Source: Mesorhizobium sp. Root102 (GTDB lineage Bacteria; Pseudomonadota; Alphaproteobacteria; Rhizobiales; Rhizobiaceae). From it: 64,000 nt of DNA. The notes under the pieces were generated by a model, which was given only the letters and a program-made list of their open reading frames with translations, was not told where the DNA came from and made no database searches. Where the stretch lies: positions 51,206 through 115,205 of the forward strand of contig NZ_LMCP01000015.1 of NCBI RefSeq assembly GCF_001425625.1. The letters run 5' to 3'. This document shows positions 955-53,751 of the stretch, piece by piece; position 1 is the stretch's first letter; every line of letters starts with the position of its first letter. Position numbers and translations under genes: made by a program.

Positions 955-2379
955 CTAATCGATTTGATCTTCTATGCGCGCCAGGCTTTCCTCGCGACCG
1001 AGCACGGCAAGCACATCGAACACGCCCGGCGAGGTGCTCTTGCCGGTCAAAGCGGCGCGCAAAGGCTGGGCCACGGCGCCGAGCTTGTGGCCACCAGCCA
1101 CTGCAACCTCGCGGATCGCGGCCTCCGCTGCAGCGGCCGTCCACTCACTTGCAAGCGCGTTCAAAGCTTCGTGAGCGCCGCGCAGGATCTTGCGGGCATC
1201 GTCATTGAGCAGAAGGGCGGCCTTGTCATCGATCGGCAGCGGTCGCGTGGCAAACAGGAAGGCTGCGCCATCGACGAGTTCGACCAGCGTCTTGGCGCGC
1301 TCCTTCAGGCCCGGCAGTGCTGCCAGCAACTGCGCCTTGTTGCTGTCGTTCAGGCGCGAAGCCATCGCCGGGCCACCCTCGAGATAGGGCAAGGTGGCGA
1401 TGAAGATGTCGAACAGCTCGACGTCGCTCATACGGCGCATATGCGCGCCGTTGATCGCCTCGAGCTTGGCGAAGTCGAAGCGGGCCGCGCCCTTGTTGAC
1501 GTCGCCGATGTCGAACCAGGAGATCATGTCCTTGATCGACATGATCTCGTCGTCGCCATGGCTCCAGCCGAGGCGCGCCAGGTAGTTGAGCAGCGCCTCC
1601 GGCAGGTAGCCCATGGCGCGATAGGCCTCGACGCCGAGCGCGCCGTGCCGCTTCGACAACTTGGCGCCATCGGCGCCGTGGATCAGCGGGATATGCGACA
1701 TGGACGGCACCTCCCAGCCCATGGCGTTGTAGATCACAGTCTGGCGGGCGGCATTGGTCAGATGGTCGTCGCCACGGATGATGTGGGTGACGCCCATGTC
1801 ATGGTCGTCGACGACGACGGCATGCATATAGGTCGGGTTGCCGTCCGAACGCAGGATGATGAAATCATCGAGATCCTTGTTGGGAAAGCGCACCTCGCCC
1901 TGGACGCGGTCATGGACGATGGTCTCGCCCTCGGTCGGCGCCTTGATGCGGATGGCGCCCTTGGCGCCTGCAGGCGCCTCTGAGGGGTCGCGGTCACGCC
2001 AGCGGCCATCATAGCGGGGCGGCAGGCCCTTGGCTCTGGCGGCCTCGCGCATTGCCTCCAACTCGGCCGGCGTCGCGTAGCAATAATAGGCCTTGCCCAT
2101 GCGCACCAGTTCCTCGGCTACCTCGCGGTGGCGCGGCGCACGCTCGAACTGCGACACCGGCTCGCCGTCCCAGCTGAGGCCGAGCCAGGAAAGTCCGTCA
2201 AGAATGGCAGCGGTGGCGGCTTCGTTGGAGCGTTCGCGGTCGGTGTCCTCGATGCGCAGCAGCATCGTGCCGCCGGTGTGCTTTGCATACAGCCAGTTGA
2301 ACAGCGCCGTGCGCGCCCCGCCTATGTGCAGGTAGCCGGTGGGCGAGGGGGCAAAACGGGTGACGACCTTGTCGGACAT
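955..2379 (-). CDS. gltX: glutamyl-tRNA synthetase
   Basis: Class I aminoacyl-tRNA synthetase that charges tRNA-Glu. I place the start at ATG 2379 ([15 protein letters not shown]), because the family begins here and upstream in-frame codons give low-complexity sequence. The product is 474 residues, the usual length. The HIGH-type motif is HIGG at residues 18-21, and the KMSKS-type motif is KLSKR in the segment [17 protein letters not shown]-terminal anticodon-binding half follows. The gene is divergent from the comEC-like gene, whose start lies about 100 bases away. Many alphaproteobacteria carry two gltX copies, so this may be one of two; nothing here decides whether it also charges tRNA-Gln. 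Confidence 0.96.
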
Positions 2380-2481
2380 GGAACTCTCGGAAACCATCTG
2401 AAGCGGGGTGTTGTCGCGCGGACTTTCGCGCGCCCGGCGTTCATGTAGCATAGGGTGTCGAGGGCGCAAGGGGCAGACCCG

Positions 2482-4944
2482 ATGGCTGGACGAAGCCGGG
2501 GCTCGGATCAGGGCGAGGACGCCGCTATTGGCGTCAGCGAACGGTCCCTCTTTGCGCCTCTGCCAGCCCCGCTGCCGCCGCCGTCGCCCCTTGTGCCGGC
2601 TCCCGGCAAAGCGCCCGTACAAGCGGATGTCGCCGCCTCTATTCCAGTTGCCGAAACCGACAGGGTCGTGCGCGTGCGCCGGCGAATCGGCCGGATTTCA
2701 CTGCGTCGCCTGCGCCACAGCGTAGCCACTGCGGCTGGCCTGGAACTCGACCGAGGCATCGCTTTCCTGCTGGTGCCGGTCTGTCTGGCAGTCGGAGCGA
2801 TCGGCTACTTTTCGCTGGCGGCGGAGCCTGACTTTGCCAAGCCCGTCGCGGTCGTCGCCCTTGCCGCCCTATGTGCGGGGGTCTCGCGTTCCTGGCCAAA
2901 GACCCATCTGTGCTTCATGGCGGCACTTTTGTGCGCGCTGGGTCTGCTCGCTGCAAAGGTCGAGACATGGCGGGCAGGCACACAGATGCTGGGTTCGGAA
3001 ATCTCGACGCAGGTGACCGGCCGGGTTGTCTCGCTCGACCGGATGGAGACCGGTCGCGTCCGGCTGACCATCGACGTGACGTCGACCGCAAGGCCGAAAT
3101 TGCGCTATGCGCCGGAGCGGGTGCGGCTTTCGGCACGAAAGATCCCGGCAGACACAACCGCCGGGTCCCTGATCACGGGATATGCCAAGCTGTTGCCGCC
3201 GACGGGTCCGGTGCGGCCGGACAGCTACGACTTCTCCTTCGACAGTTATTTCGCAGGCATCGGCGGCAGCGGGTTCTTTCTCGGCAATCCAAAGCTTGTC
3301 GTCACTGATGACGGCGACATGCCGCTGTCGGCCCGCCTTTCCTCTCGCGTGGAAAATGCCCGTGAAGCGATTGCCGATCATATCAGGGCCAGCGTCGGTG
3401 GCGCCGAAGGCGAGATCGCCGCTGCGCTGATCGTCGGGGTGCGCGCCGGCATTCCCGATGAAATCAATGAAGCGATGCGGCGTACCGGCATCTACCACAT
3501 TATCTCCATCTCCGGGCTGCACATGGCGCTGGTCGCCGGCACCATCATGGGTTTGCTGCGCGGTGCCTTCGCCTTGTTCCCGGACTTTTCCGCGCGCCGT
3601 CCGGTCAAGAAATATGCCGCCGCCGCGGCATTGCTCTCGATCGCCGCCTATCTCATCATCTCAGGCGTCGTGGTTGCCGCCGAGCGCAGCTTCATCATGC
3701 TGGCAGTGATGCTGATTGCCGTGCTGTTCGATCGGGCAGCACTCACCATGCGCAATCTGGCGATCTCGGCGATCGCCGTCATCGTGGTGTCGCCGCATGA
3801 AGTGGTCGGCCCAAGTTTTCAGATGTCGTTCGCGGCGACTGCCGCGCTGGTCGGCGCCTATGCCGGCTGGTCGGATCATCGCGCGGGGAAAACCAGACCG
3901 CCTCCGCCAAAGCGATCCTTACCTGGCTTCCTGACGCGAAAGTTCCTGCTGGCGGCGGGTGGCCTTGCCATGACCTCGATCATCGCCGGCAGCGCCACTG
4001 CGCTGTTTGCCATCTGGCATTTTCAGCGCGTGTCGCCGCTCAGCCTGTTTGCCAATCTGGCCATCATGCCGATTGTCTCGGTCGTTATGCTGCTTGCCGT
4101 GATCAGCGCACTGACGATGCCCTTTGGCGCCGATGGACCTTTTTTGTATCTGATGGGCGAGGGCCTGACGGCGATGGTCACCATATCGGCGTGGATCTCC
4201 GAGCGTTCGCCTGTCGATGGGGTCGGATTGATTTCGCAGCAGTCTGTCCTGCTGGTGGCGATTGCCCTGGTCATCGCGACGATGGCGACGACACGGCTGC
4301 GGCTCGCGGCTCTTCCCTTTGCGCTTGCCGGCCTGCTGACCGTCTCGGATGCGCGCACGCCCGACGTGCTGATCTCGGAGGACGCCCGACTGGTTGCGTT
4401 GCCGATCGGCGGCGGCGAGCTCGCCGTCAGCCGCGCACGGCCGAACGAATTCACCGTCGACAACTGGAAACGCGCACTGACATCCGAAACCATCGTCGTG
4501 CCGGAGGTGTTCGACAAGGGCGATGGGCAATTCGAGATCGCGGATGCCCCGGAACTGCCGCCGGGATCGCCGTTCTATTGCACCTCGGGCGTCTGTCTGG
4601 CCAGGCACACGTCCGGTGCGATCATTGCCTATGTCGAAGACCGAAAAGACACCTGGAAAGCCTGCGGCTTTGCCGAGCTGATCGTTGTCAATGACGCCAC
4701 GGCCTATGACGCCTGTCACAATCCGCTGGTTCTCGTCATCACCAAGCGACAACTGGCTCGCAAAGGCAGCGCTGCCATCTTCTTCGATCGCCAGTCGGCG
4801 ACCACGCCAGCAACCGTCAGCTTCGCGGTGGACAGGCCTTACCGGCCCTGGCATGTACAACGCAAATTCTCACGCGAGGCGAGGGGACTGCCGCCCTTCA
4901 AGGGACCAGAGAAGCCAGTGGTTAAACCGCAGCCACCTCAGTAG
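2482..4944 (+). CDS. ComEC/Rec2-family membrane protein
   Basis: Polytopic inner-membrane protein of the ComEC/Rec2 family, whose well-studied members form the DNA channel of natural transformation. ATG 2482 is preferred (AAGGGG seven bases upstream) over GTG 2455, giving 820 residues. After a Pro-rich cytoplasmic start come a hydrophobic DUF4131-like segment, the family hallmark [15 protein letters not shown] near residue 345, and a long run of membrane helices up to about residue 620. The last 200 residues are soluble. They contain four cysteines but no HxHxDH signature of the metallo-beta-lactamase nuclease domain found in Bacillus ComEC. The 3' end overlaps the convergent lexA by seven bases. 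A role in DNA uptake here is inference only. Confidence 0.88.
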
Positions 4945-49961: not shown

Positions 49962-50104
49962 GGCTTTCCCTCAAGGTTTTGTCGGACAGAAACTCGCAGG
50001 CGTGCCGGTTTGTTCCGCAGCTGGAATGCATGACCCCGACGATGTCCCCAACTGATGTGGAGCGCATCACGCTTGCTACCTGCTCGAGGGGCCGCCCGCT
50101 TAAC

Positions 50105-50338
50105 TTACGCGGCGCGTCGTTGAGCGGGGTGGAGACCTGAACGGGTTCTACGAGGGTCGACGGCGGTCACGATGCCGTGGTGGTGATCGCAATAGACGCG
50201 GTCCGTCGAGGTTGGCCCGGCACAAAAACGATAGCCGCCGGGTACTGACCGGTCTTCGCTCACCGGGAAGCGGCACTGATAGAGGCCTAGCTGAATGAGG
50301 GGGACGTCTCTCGAAGTTAGTCTGATATTTTCACGCAT
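50105..50338 (-). CDS. small protein resembling the C-terminal tail of GcrA
   Basis: A 77-residue protein. The central pattern QLGLYQCRFPVSEDRSVPGGYRFCAG, then RVYCDHHHGI, puts three cysteines and histidines in the order C-R-x-P, F-C, Y-C-x-H-H. This resembles the C-terminal part of the alphaproteobacterial cell-cycle regulator GcrA, without its N-terminal DNA-binding part. It may bind a metal. The start codon is not preceded by a strong ribosome-binding site. A real gene is likely but not certain. Confidence 0.5.
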   Translation of the reverse strand: MRENIRLTSRDVPLIQLGLYQCRFPVSEDRSVPGGYRFCAGPTSTDRVYCDHHHGIVTAVDPRRTRSGLHPAQRRAA

Positions 50339-50683
50339 GGTTTTTCAGGTTCCTGGTTCATGGCCATTGCCGGCTGACGGCCGCTGTGCGGCCGCGTCAG
50401 GGCGAGCTTCTCTCGTCTTGGAGGGCTGTGGATCACAATATGGTGTTGGTCGCAGCGTCAATGAAGCCCGAGGCCCTGCTTTCGGAAGCCAATTGTTGCG
50501 ACTTAAGGCCACACATACCGTTGGGGTGGGGGTGGCTTGTGGGGCCCCCCAACGCGCTGTGCACTTTTCGGGAGCGAAACCATTTTGTCAGCAGACAGCG
50601 TGGTCGCGTCCCAGAGCATCTCTCCGAACCGTTGCGCCGGTGCTATGATGTGCCTGCATGATCAGACAGCAGGGATACGAGGC
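50339..50683. other. gap without a convincing gene
   Basis: This stretch contains two short GC palindromes and a fragment (GTGCACTTTTCGGGAGCGAAACC) that loosely recalls the loop of the dispersed repeats. An open frame of about 90 codons crosses it but has no motif, signal or good start. I see nothing else to annotate. Confidence 0.5.
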
Positions 50684-51040
50684 ATGCCCGAAGTCACCCG
50701 CCGTACACTTCTTGCGTTCACCGCCGCCGTAGCCTCGGTCGTTGAACCGACGTTTGCTGAGGCGGAAGGTGCCTCACCCGAATTGCGGGCGCTGATCGGA
50801 GCCCATGAAGCCACCTATGTCGGGCTTCACAGGGTTGTTCATCAAGCGGGCAGCAGCAGCCACGAACGCAAGAGGGCAGACCGGATTGAACAGGAAGCAT
50901 TGCTGGCCATCTGCTCCTATCCCGCGATCAGCCGAGGCGACCGACGGGCCAAGGCCGATTACCTGTTGACCGTTGAGGCTCGGGGTGAACTCGACCTGGA
51001 AGAGCACATGCAGGCCATCCTGCACTCGATGAAGCGCTGA
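50684..51040 (+). CDS. hypothetical protein with a possible Tat-like signal
   Basis: A 118-residue protein, start ATG 50684 (MPEVTRRTLLAFTAAVASVVEPTFAEA). The twin arginine followed by a hydrophobic stretch suggests a Tat or Sec export signal at 1-26. The rest is helical and charged (GAHEATYVGLHRVVHQAG, RADRIEQEALLAICSYP), with no catalytic motif that I know. Small proteins of this layout recur in Mesorhizobium accessory regions. The function is unknown. Confidence 0.6.
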   Translation: MPEVTRRTLLAFTAAVASVVEPTFAEAEGASPELRALIGAHEATYVGLHRVVHQAGSSSHERKRADRIEQEALLAICSYPAISRGDRRAKADYLLTVEARGELDLEEHMQAILHSMKR

Positions 51041-51085
51041 TCGCGGCTCGACCGGCGCAGAGCTTGGACCCATCAACAGGAGTTC

Positions 51086-51388
51086 ATGCGCGGACTCCAG
51101 GCTATCTCGCCACCTTCCATTACTGCGACTACGCATCAGTGGCTAACGTGCGAAGCGGTCAGCGACCTGGCGGGCAAATGGGAGGTGAGGCTCGATGAAG
51201 CCCCATCCCGTGTGCAGCAAGCCAGGGCGCTGGAACCGGAACGCTACACGGTCTGTTGCGCCGACGACCGTATCGAGGTTTCGTTCTGGGATCTCGAGCA
51301 GATGACGGTGCGGCGCGGCTCCAACGTCTGCCAGTTCCAGAGCTACGGTTCTTGCTTTCTTACCGCTGCGGGATGGGCAGCAGATTAG
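51086..51388 (+). CDS. short hypothetical protein
   Basis: A 100-residue frame with four cysteines, including CCADDRIEVSFWDLEQMTV. It starts 45 bases after the preceding gene on the same strand. No signal peptide, family or ribosome-binding site is clear, and base use is not strongly coding. It is listed as possible only. Confidence 0.3.
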   Translation: MRGLQAISPPSITATTHQWLTCEAVSDLAGKWEVRLDEAPSRVQQARALEPERYTVCCADDRIEVSFWDLEQMTVRRGSNVCQFQSYGSCFLTAAGWAAD

Positions 51389-51413
51389 CCTTCCGCGCTG
51401 CAAAAACGAGCAC

Positions 51414-51893
51414 TCACACGGTCAAAAAAGGTATATGAAAGGCTTTTCGTTCATAATTCAGTTCGCGAAAAGCGATTCTCAGGCTGGCGGCTTTGGATTT
51501 AATTTCTACCACTCTTGCCGGATCAGCCGCGCGATCTTTGACGTCAAAATTGTCGCCTGTTGCAGCCTGACGAAAATTAAGAAAAGCGCTATCAATCCTC
51601 ATCTTCGAATTATGGACGCGCGAGGTCACAAAATTCGCAAAAACGTTGATGTCGTGCAAAGAGCTAATTGTGCTGTCGACTTCTGGAGATAGCGGATCAC
51701 CGGGTTGCATCCATACGGAAGACGCCTTGGAAACGCACTCTGCGGTCATCTGTTCAAGTTCGGCTAGGGTGGCATCTATCATCTGCGTGTTGGCGGTAAA
51801 GCGCTGTTGAATCGCCAGCCCAGCGAGGCCGACTAACCCCGACGCGATGCCACCAAGCACCGAGATGAAAAAGGTCTCAGCGCCGTCCGCCAT
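51414..51893 (-). CDS. membrane-anchored hypothetical protein of the STAS/GHKL cassette
   Basis: A 159-residue protein with one N-terminal membrane helix (about 8-28, FISVLGGIASGLVGLAGLAIQQ) and a helical cytoplasmic part, probably a coiled coil at about 30-55. No known domain is seen. It overlaps the DUF4325 gene by 17 bases (51877-51893), and its codon use is AT-richer than the housekeeping genes around. Coupling to the two upstream genes suggests that it belongs to the same system, perhaps as output or membrane anchor. Confidence 0.65.
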   Translation of the reverse strand: MADGAETFFISVLGGIASGLVGLAGLAIQQRFTANTQMIDATLAELEQMTAECVSKASSVWMQPGDPLSPEVDSTISSLHDINVFANFVTSRVHNSKMRIDSAFLNFRQAATGDNFDVKDRAADPARVVEIKSKAASLRIAFRELNYERKAFHIPFLTV

Positions 51894-52230
51894 CGCTTGC
51901 TTTGCTGACGTGAAAATTGATGTCAGAAATGTATATGGAAAAGTCGGGTGACGCTCTGAGTGTTATGCGTCGCTGAAATTCTTCCCGCGACCACTTCATC
52001 TCCCGTACCAACCCGCCGAATGCCTCCTCTAAAAAGGAGGACGGGTAGCCACGCGTACCGTCCATCTCTATTGTGAGATGATCGTTCTCGGCCAAGGCCG
52101 GAATGAGAACTTCCTCTCTAAATTTCTGCCCAGAAGCGGGCCCATCGGTGTAATATCTGCCACCAGGCGTTCTGGAGAATTCATTGAGAATGTTGATCGT
52201 CCGCACACGGTTCCTCTGCGCAACGGTCAT
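51877..52230 (-). CDS. STAS-like DUF4325 protein
   Basis: A 117-residue protein. The start at ATG 52230 makes an ATGA overlap with the ATPase stop; GTG 52245 is a longer alternative. The family pattern is TPGGRYYTDGPASGQKFREEVLIPAL, then HLTIEMDGTRGYPSSFLEEAFGGLVREM, which matches the strand-helix order of STAS-like DUF4325 domains. These are found next to, or fused with, GHKL-type ATPases, which suggests partner switching (antagonist and kinase), but I know of no biochemical proof. It lies between the ATPase and a membrane protein. Confidence 0.75.
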   Translation of the reverse strand: MTVAQRNRVRTINILNEFSRTPGGRYYTDGPASGQKFREEVLIPALAENDHLTIEMDGTRGYPSSFLEEAFGGLVREMKWSREEFQRRITLRASPDFSIYISDINFHVSKASDGGRR

Positions 52231-53354
52231 TTCGAGATACTCCACTCAATCAGCGTGCCGCCCAAGGCGACCCTATGGTTCGTGGCCGTGATAACACCGC
52301 GCACGCTATCATATATCGCTTCGCCAGTCCCGCTGATAATTCTCAGGTAGCCGCGATGATGGTCTAAAATCCTCATCATTGTGGGTAGGCCGTTACCGCG
52401 ACCTTGCAATGTCGTTCTCGTCCGCCCGTATTCCATCGCTGCCTGAATCATTTGAGCATCGTCTGTCGTTCCGCCAATTGCCGCCAGCGCCCCACGAATG
52501 CCTTCCCATATCGTCGCTCGTGGCAAGGTGCGTGGAATGCCGACGCCCATGTCATACACCGCTGCCGTCAGCGATTTCGAAGCGCGGTCGTATGAGCCAG
52601 ACATAAACCAAGTCCCAGGCGCAACGCCAAACCATTCGTCCGGTTCCAAATAGGCGTGTTGCTTCGAGTTTTTCAGGGCCTCAATGAGCCCGTCGTAGAT
52701 GAAATTGTCAGCGTTTATCGGGCCCGAAATTTCGGCCAGATGCTCTAACAGGTCGTCACATTTGGCGCCGATAACGTCTGTGTCGCTGCGGTACTTCAGG
52801 ATTTGAACTGGATGGCTGGCCGGGAGGTCGACAGGTGCGGGTCTGTCAGGCGTATCCAGAAAATCGAACAGTCCAAGACTGCGGAACAAATAAGCAATTT
52901 CAGGTCGCCAAAGCCTATCGCGCACAATTTTAAGCCTTCGTCCAACAAACTGCTGCCAGCGATACAACTCCGCCGCCAGAACGAGCGATGCCCCTGGCGA
53001 CGCATGCTGGAAAGCCTCGAAATCAACGCCTCTGGGAAGTTCAGACGGGATTTTGTCACGGTAAATCTGAAAGCGAAGGTGAGCAAAAAATGAAGCTACT
53101 TCTTCGTAGTTTTCTCGAAGCGAAAAATTTGCAGGAGGCTGAATGTAAAGATATGATTTACGTCGACTCCCTCTTTTGATCTTCATTTCAGGCGGAGCAA
53201 CGTCAGCGGGAGGCTGTGGCAGCCTCGGCTTGGCGTCATAAGTCTTTCCAACAACTGGGGTAGGAACATGAAAGTGGCGAGCCTGTTGGCGCCTCCTTTC
53301 ATTGGCTGCTCTCAAATAATGCCAGTTCTTCCATGCAAGATTGGGCCTTTTCAC
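52227..53354 (-). CDS. STAS-like plus GHKL ATPase protein
   Basis: A 375-residue protein. The first about 70 residues are basic and Pro-rich. Residues 85-165 hold a STAS-like stretch (GVDFEAFQHASPGASLVLAAELYRWQ). Residues 210-375 form a GHKL ATPase with N-box Glu225/Asn229 (DGLIEALKNSKQHA), G1 box Asp268-x-Gly-x-Gly (YDMGVGIP) and G2 box GRGNGL at 318-323. There is no H-box, so it is not an ordinary sensor kinase. It is the first gene of a three-gene run with overlapping ends, and its start lies about 320 bases from tRNA-Val. GC content is lower than in the flanks. The function is unknown. Confidence 0.75.
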   Translation of the reverse strand: MKRPNLAWKNWHYLRAANERRRQQARHFHVPTPVVGKTYDAKPRLPQPPADVAPPEMKIKRGSRRKSYLYIQPPANFSLRENYEEVASFFAHLRFQIYRDKIPSELPRGVDFEAFQHASPGASLVLAAELYRWQQFVGRRLKIVRDRLWRPEIAYLFRSLGLFDFLDTPDRPAPVDLPASHPVQILKYRSDTDVIGAKCDDLLEHLAEISGPINADNFIYDGLIEALKNSKQHAYLEPDEWFGVAPGTWFMSGSYDRASKSLTAAVYDMGVGIPRTLPRATIWEGIRGALAAIGGTTDDAQMIQAAMEYGRTRTTLQGRGNGLPTMMRILDHHRGYLRIISGTGEAIYDSVRGVITATNHRVALGGTLIEWSISK

Positions 53355-53676
53355 TCAACGGCACCTCCCGATGCAGCGTTGGGGGCAGATAGTCGTCCAA
53401 GTCAAGCCCTCGCTACGCAGCCCGCGGCTGGCAAGTCGTGGACGGCAGTACAATACTAGAGACCTCGAGGACGAGGAAGGCGCGTTTCAATTCCGGGTGG
53501 ATCGAGGTGCGCGTGTTAGGCCGCGAACGGCTCGGGAACAGATTCCCCGGATTTTCCCGAATGCCGGGCCGAGTTCCGCTTGCGTTCGTCGGGTGATGCC
53601 GAGCAGCTTTATGCAATTTCGTTCGCGAAGTTTACGCGAAAACGGCGCAAAACATGGCCTTATTGTGCATTGGGAA
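53355..53676. other. gap between the STAS/GHKL cassette and tRNA-Val
   Basis: No gene is convincing here. Open frames on both strands lack motifs, and the one entering the tRNA yields the peptide that tRNA genes commonly produce in translation. I looked for a repeat of the tRNA 3' end that would mark an attachment site and found none in 50-53.7 kb. Confidence 0.5.
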
Positions 53677-53751
53677 TGGTGGGCGATGCAGGGATTGAAC
53701 CTGCGACCCCACCCGTGTGAAGGGTGTGCTCTCCCGCTGAGCTAATCGCCC
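53677..53751 (-). tRNA. tRNA-Val (anticodon CAC)
   Basis: On the minus strand the acceptor stem GGGCGAT/ATCGCCC, D-arm GCTC/GAGC, anticodon stem CACCC/GGGTG with loop TTCACAC (anticodon CAC, codon GTG) and T-arm GCAGG-TTCAATC-CCTGC fold normally. Discriminator A and CCA are encoded (53680-53677). The gene is 75 bases with CCA. Confidence 0.95.

Follow-up and report, generated by a model that had tools for sequence, protein, structure and literature searches.

Introduction

Partner switching in bacteria is known from sporulation and stress responses. The nearest known system to the locus analysed here, as far as the consulted portions of one report reach, is VapKSC (Chambers et al., EMBO J 2026; PMC13373217). 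According to these portions, the kinase CapK is activated by single-stranded DNA (ssDNA) and phosphorylates a serine in the STAS domain of CapS. In VapKSC the PIN toxin VapC has VapS as its antitoxin, and a Ser-to-Glu exchange in VapS abolishes binding. The vapKSC operon confers approximately 2-log protection against one phage. Activation of VapK could not be tested directly by the authors; the aromatic residue proposed to bind ssDNA is W68 in CapK and F54 in VapK (PMC13373217). Here we describe a three-gene locus, A-B-C, in Mesorhizobium sp. Root102. The window, that is, the whole stretch of DNA analysed, comprises 64,000 nucleotides of contig NZ_LMCP01000015.1.

Organisation of the locus

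The features under discussion are the following, in window coordinates:

51414-51893, minus strand: gene C, 159 aa (ORF call, hydropathy and model)
51877-52230, minus strand: gene B, 117 aa (ORF call and PF14213 match)
52227-53354, minus strand: gene A, 375 aa, GTG start (ORF call)
53677-53751, minus strand: tRNA-Val (CAC), called by ARAGORN; the inserted DNA abuts its 3' end
51346-53676, strand not given: approximate inserted segment with A, B and C (comparison with relatives' loci)

An original prediction, made from the sequence alone, had described three overlapping genes in an AT-rich region starting about 320 bases from tRNA-Val, and this layout is borne out. The reading frames are present on the minus strand; the ATG of B overlaps the TGA of A in an ATGA with four shared bases, B and C overlap by 17 bases, and 322 bases separate the start of A from the tRNA-Val 3' end. 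GC content is 0.529 in A, 0.525 in B and 0.506 in C, lower than in the flanking DNA on either side (0.621 and 0.631). Chance reading frames were ruled out, because the arrangement recurs in 123 clusters formed at 80% identity of A. Promoter and terminator scans at the locus remained at chance level. No model of PADLOC-DB 2.0.0 matched B or C, and none matched over most of A; a PADLOC match of A to DrmA (18.8 bits, residues 283-359, positions 182-256 of a 1750-position model) was judged spurious.

A putative kinase with a polybasic tail

By model and alignment, the product of gene A is divided as follows:

N-terminal part: polybasic tail with a helix at residues 6-27
residues ~68-175: STAS-like domain
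residues ~180-375: SpoIIAB-like GHKL domain

Sequence and model point to a putative serine kinase. The Pfam match to HATPase_c is weak (14.8 bits against a cut-off of 26.4), and A matches phrog_3364 at E 5.8e-38. As first read, the protein has N, G1 and G2 boxes, and no H-box was seen in it; the six box residues E225, N229, D268, G270, G320 and G322 are invariant in an alignment of 105 rows, made of 104 of the 122 representatives and the window's A, from which rows were left out by length, contig start or source, together with L082. In the AlphaFold2 model (pLDDT 84.7, pTM 0.82) a single N-terminal helix, residues 6-27, is followed by a low-confidence stretch ahead of the STAS-like domain. That domain is so labelled from its predicted alternation of strands and helices and from profile alignment to VapK-like kinases, not from a fold match of its own; no helix-turn-helix (HTH) family was found in A by Pfam.

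Among solved structures, the GHKL domain is closest to SpoIIAB and RsbW. SpoIIAB tops the Foldseek list for the A model at E 2.1e-3, with nothing reaching E 0.001, and VIA-align superposes residues 182-375 on it with Z 10.7 and rmsd 3.0 over 127 residues, while a sequence profile of A finds RsbW and SpoIIAB at E 0.004-0.007. With these two proteins as its closest solved relatives, A might be an anti-sigma kinase and B an anti-anti-sigma factor, as in classical partner switching. We consider this highly improbable, given that the constant third gene is C rather than one for a sigma factor, that the trio is spread over phages and plasmids, and that in A the kinase domain is joined to a STAS-like domain and a basic tail.

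Residues 68-375 of A match a profile of six VapK-like or paired kinases with probability 99.4 and E 5e-21; these kinases come from loci found in this work, and two of the six, in L240 and L243, belong to operons whose third gene encodes a PIN protein by Pfam. The tail sets A apart from them. Over the first 50 residues of A the net charge averages +11.7 (n=120), with at least +8 in 104 proteins and +9 in the window's A, and from residue 101 onward the protein is near neutral (+0.95 per 50 residues); in 12 VapK-like or other paired kinases the corresponding charge is -7 to +1, a thirteenth, that of L260, reaching +15. Nucleic acid and the membrane are possible binding partners of such a tail. 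The column matched to the ssDNA-stacking aromatic residue of CapK and VapK, inferred without the published sequences, holds an aromatic residue in 11 of 105 A proteins and Lys or Arg in 46; since this presumed column is mostly non-aromatic, the ssDNA trigger may not carry over to A. The PIN-type kinase of L243 also has Arg there.

A DUF4325 protein with an invariant serine

The assignment of B to the STAS-like family DUF4325 (PF14213) proved correct at E 1e-14, with 54.4 bits against a cut-off of 23, and DUF4325 is the only family that Pfam found in its 117 aa. A sequence search for a solved structure of B gave none, the best match having E 0.48. The motif SSFLEEAFGGLVR of B includes Ser65 and lies where SpoIIAA has its phosphorylated serine; by this analogy Ser65 is the likely phosphorylation site. 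The residue is kept in 123/123 representative operons, but because 45 of the 123 were found with a pattern containing this serine, the fair count is 77/77 for representatives found through A, or 41/41 for those from genome contigs alone. By eye, it is also present in five further plasmid operons, and the variants TSF, RSF and SSY occur. Together with the profile match of A to VapK-like kinases, this invariance agrees with the pairing of a kinase with a STAS protein that had been proposed at the outset.

A membrane protein as third member

Modelled at pLDDT 92.2, C consists of a 60-residue helix with a membrane segment, followed by three more helices. The third gene had been read as encoding a membrane-anchored protein, and this extends to the family: under a hydropathy cut-off, 110 of 121 third proteins have a TM-like segment (near the N-terminus in 106, stronger near the C-terminus in four), and the other 11 have weak hydrophobic segments only. 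The charge rule places the N-terminus outside and the helical bundle inside in 102 of the 110, with the reverse in three and a tie in five, and the bundle is thereby predicted to be cytoplasmic. A GW pair is found in 62 of the 110 membrane segments, where shuffling gives about 14, and is a family signature of C.

Pfam returned no significant match for the window's C. In a set of 103 C proteins (102 third proteins and the window's; 130-185 aa, complete, excluding longer C proteins with a C-terminal membrane segment), it gave ten families with one weak match apiece and no PIN match at E 0.01. Foldseek found nothing for the C model at E 0.001; histidine kinase and chemoreceptor sensor domains are among the weak matches. 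Because of these sensor-type matches C could be an input: as a membrane helix joined to a helical bundle, it might sense, for example, superinfection or membrane stress, with B as the relay and A as the output or feedback. The bundle, however, is predicted on the cytoplasmic and not the periplasmic side, none of the matches reaches E 0.001, and the effector is expected in third position from the order of the genes and by analogy with VapKSC, so that signal flow in this direction appears quite unlikely.

Conservation of the trio as a unit

The window's A is rare in simple searches: a single-protein search found it in 1/61 genomes, the window's own, and a pattern search of genome contigs gave 20 stretches with no relative among them. 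A tblastn search with A retrieved one phage and two plasmids, and in all three A is followed by B and C. A profile of four A proteins then yielded 48 and 58 loci, and a search with B 147 matches, 80 of which were used; the 186 rows of these profile scans correspond to 185 new loci, some pairs of which share one contig. The survey thus covered 188 loci and the window, in which ORFs were called and searched with A and B profiles, a copy of the window (L001) being dropped.

B lies directly downstream of A in 179 of 185 A matches. Of the six A matches without B, three are at a contig edge and two are the leading parts of a broken A gene, with B found after the remaining part; L010 is the one genuine exception. 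In L010 (7094-8840) a shortened A stands right behind an integrase-like ORF, as judged by eye, and this is perhaps a decayed copy. Conversely, seven B matches have no A match upstream: four start at the first base of a contig piece, two (the first copy in L142, and L178) lie less than 0.75 kb from a contig end and have a third ORF after B, and that of L181 is not accounted for by a contig end. The viral contig L142 carries two operon copies facing each other (498-1342, plus; 1594-3323, minus), one of which keeps its A; the other lies close to the end of the contig and has B as its first gene.

Operons with B and an A longer than 250 aa numbered 176 (those with A of 250 aa or less were dropped) and formed the 123 clusters at 80% identity. 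Of these clusters, 121 include a third reading frame no shorter than 120 aa, and in the other two the contig stops 27 and 0 bases beyond B. No full third ORF follows B in L137 and L139, which are near-copies of L135. With the start nearest the preceding stop chosen, which favours short distances, A and B are within 20 bases in 118/123 and B and C in 109/121. Distance matrices of A, B and C over 102 operons correlate with Spearman coefficients of 0.38-0.56, a level reached in 0/200 permutations.

A wider view was obtained from DUF4325 itself, which occurs at 31 places in 29 of 398 genomes of the phylum; 29 loci and the window were examined, one place having yielded no locus. Eight of these 30, the window included, show the A-B-C arrangement, their C having a hydrophobic segment (the A frame of L251 is short), and in L252 the third gene product is weakly hydrophobic. 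L240 (864-2639, minus) and L243 (463-2369, plus) have a PIN protein as third gene by Pfam, which is the VapKSC arrangement. The remaining loci hold kinase-STAS pairs, long fusion-like frames or unclear arrangements. The long frames containing DUF4325, of approximately 335-533 aa (L235, L237, L238, L244-L247, L249, L253 and L255), are apparently fused kinase-STAS proteins, and phrog_5816 (441 positions), whose last part is matched by B, may be of the same kind.

Kinase-DUF4325 pairs without the membrane gene, which the original prediction had set against a three-gene unit, do exist in L234, L241, L248, L250 and L263, on a separate kinase branch. One further pair, L260, in which a tailed kinase and B were found and C was not, is placed next to the membrane type in the tree, and by eye it adjoins a transposase-like ORF. 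In the kinase tree, 43 sampled kinases of the membrane type fall on one side of a branch with support 95/90 and 13 others on the opposite side, single placements being unsure because several branches are long. The L241 pair, in a genome of the same genus (G021; 1360-2766, minus), is VapK/VapS-like, with no PIN or membrane gene directly behind it; the next ORF on the same strand resembles DUF262/GmrS by eye, and the pair might regulate a restriction operon in the manner of CapKS.

These comparisons also bear on the possibility that the locus is simply a VapKSC or CapKS operon. Its first two proteins are the same by homology and the serine of B is conserved, but no PIN match was found among the 103 C proteins, B is a 117-aa protein with DUF4325 only, and the sampled membrane-type kinases keep to their own side of the tree. 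We give this identity hardly any credence, and plain VapKSC was rejected outright on its third gene.

Insertion at tRNA-Val

The tRNA-Val gene and the next gene, used as a query, match 99/99 genomes of the genus (G079 and G086 weakly), and A was found in 0/36 same-genus relatives. In 28 of 29 relatives' loci homology starts at 53670-53677, at the tRNA 3' end, and in the 29th it falls short of the tRNA. On the other side, the left flank of L191 and L200 reaches 51048/51050 and is followed by 41 or 36 bases to the tRNA, and L204, L208, L210, L211 and L213 retain the stretch 51212-51342/51346. Most simply, these borders suggest that about 2.3 kb carrying A-B-C was gained at tRNA-Val. No direct repeats of at least 14 bases, and no att-like repeat, were found around the insert, and no integrase was found within it. 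A vertically inherited house-keeping gene, which the original prediction had named as the contrary case, was rejected because A was found in none of the 36 relatives and the site holds other DNA or none in relatives.

The stretch 3' of tRNA-Val (window 50025-53676; L220-L231) is a variable site in the genus. Measured by hand in 24 of the 25 closest relatives (for G079 no partner segment was listed), the interval from the segment at 50025 to the tRNA ranges from about 80 bases in G073 to about 11 kb in G069. Its cargo includes DUF5677 in L225, above the cut-off, and DUF3037 and a HipA-like protein in L227, both below it; no recognised families were found in the cargo of the other tRNA-Val loci tested.

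Phages, plasmids and neighbouring genes

A second query with A reached seven plasmid records, and the whole set of A, B and third gene is present in 7/7: Vibrio (2), Acinetobacter (2), Leptospira, Pasteurella and Novosphingobium. One of the Acinetobacter plasmids has a short A with an IS alongside. In the Novosphingobium plasmid (L002, 7291-7842) the C gene is missing from the distributed gene table, which is incomplete. Plasmid trios are also found near toxin-antitoxin or antirestriction genes.

Among phages, Marinobacter phage AS1 carries the trio close to a Cro/CI gene. In the gene table of Francisella phage KIRK, in the consulted part of PMC7924643, the CI repressor is followed by a protein of 293 aa with 23% likeness to AS1, one with DUF4325 and a TM protein of 125 aa; by description these are the same trio, which is not treated as a unit in that passage. 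Further A proteins searched against a phage collection returned only AS1 again, with KIRK absent from the matches. Repressors and integrases occur among the neighbours of trio operons. The 140 viral neighbours considered, the nearest ones with four long ones left out, include 24 matching phrog_4 (transcriptional repressor), 13 phrog_6201 (CI-like), 11 phrog_2328, 8 phrog_1 and 7 phrog_216, and one protein can count in several of these families. The 143 neighbours at genome loci have fewer: 5 phrog_4, 4 phrog_1 and 4 phrog_216. PADLOC on the same 143, with eight long ones excluded, gave two proteins per family in the 25 families listed of 179, Type I restriction and mads genes among them at two proteins per family.

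The evidence supports A-B-C as a coupled, mobile three-gene module in which the membrane protein is nearly always the third member, which is what had been proposed: B follows A in 179/185, the third gene is there in 121/123, and the trio is found on temperate phages and on 7/7 plasmids. The expectation about its surroundings held in part, with conserved triplets, phages, plasmids, repressors and integrases on one side, while known defence genes beside the trio look few.

The frequent position beside a phage repressor (the phrog_4 and phrog_6201 neighbours, AS1 and KIRK) fits a prophage house-keeping switch, in which the trio would sense the state of the host and tune lysogeny or induction, and C would be a receptor or anchor rather than a weapon. 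The trio is also found, however, on plasmids near toxin-antitoxin or antirestriction genes and alone beside a tRNA here, settings that count against such a switch because there is no lysogeny to control. The phage region beside the repressor, moreover, also hosts accessory immunity genes. We regard the prophage switch as unlikely.

Proposed mechanism and its significance

We favour, with a probability of about 0.5, the reading of A-B-C as a mobile three-component switch, similar to VapKSC and equipped with a membrane effector. The simplest transfer from VapKSC would make A the kinase, B the antitoxin and C a membrane-bound toxin. At rest, B, a STAS protein acting like an antitoxin, would bind the cytoplasmic part of C and keep it inactive. 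A signal, perhaps nucleic acid of an invading phage sensed by the basic tail of A together with its STAS/GHKL groove, would activate the kinase, which would phosphorylate B at Ser65. Phosphorylated B would release C, and freed C may act at the inner membrane and thereby halt growth or the infection. A prophage-borne trio would then shield its lysogen from other phages. The signal is the step that transfers least surely from VapKSC.

It is tempting to go further and to see in such trios a distinct and widespread class of phage and plasmid immunity cassettes, in which a polybasic-tailed kinase of the SpoIIAB type phosphorylates one serine of a STAS antitoxin and frees a membrane effector, the GHKL-STAS pair being a general trigger for varied killers such as a PIN RNase or a membrane protein. 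This generalisation is tentative, and we would put it at somewhat under an even chance. If true, partner switching would serve as a plug-in trigger for several effectors in the conflict between phages and bacteria, and the phage trio of phrog_3364 and its neighbours would gain a testable function. Invariant Ser65, invariant N229 and the anchored C offer clean targets for point mutants, and kinase activation becomes testable, because the trio kinases have a basic tail and seem to lack the proposed ssDNA aromatic residue.

Comparison with known systems

The original prediction knew of no described system of this exact composition. No description of such a trio was found in the searched literature, with preprints and most subscription papers outside its scope, and the GHKL passages of PMC7824862 have no bearing on it; the claim needs qualification in that VapKSC, with a PIN protein third, is a close relative (PMC13373217). 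The labels that already apply, phrog_3364 for A and DUF4325/PF14213 for B, are family names without a mechanism.

With SpoIIAB/SpoIIAA and RsbW/RsbV the trio shares the GHKL fold, including an N box of the form E-x3-N-x3-H-A-Y in A, and those pairs also have a STAS substrate with a phosphorylated serine. Unlike them, the trio has no sigma factor as a constant member, A adds a STAS-like domain and a tail to what SpoIIAB and RsbW contain, and the operon adds a membrane protein.

Likeness extends to VapKSC and CapK/CapS, as far as the consulted parts of the VapKSC report describe them. As in VapKSC, there is a three-gene operon with a STAS-GHKL kinase, a short STAS protein with an invariant serine and a third gene after them, but C is a membrane protein where VapKSC has a PIN RNase. 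A also differs from the VapK-like kinases in its polybasic tail, and may differ from VapK and CapK in that the presumed ssDNA-stacking residue, in the inferred column, is not conserved. The combination of a STAS-GHKL kinase with a STAS partner bearing a conserved serine is likewise that of CapK and CapS; CapK carries an HTH. CapS, however, has a winged HTH (wHTH) and represses a neighbouring immune operon, unlike the DUF4325-only B. Because it has neither the PIN protein of VapKSC nor the wHTH of CapKS, A-B-C is to be seen as a variant of the GHKL-STAS switches that is a member of neither system.
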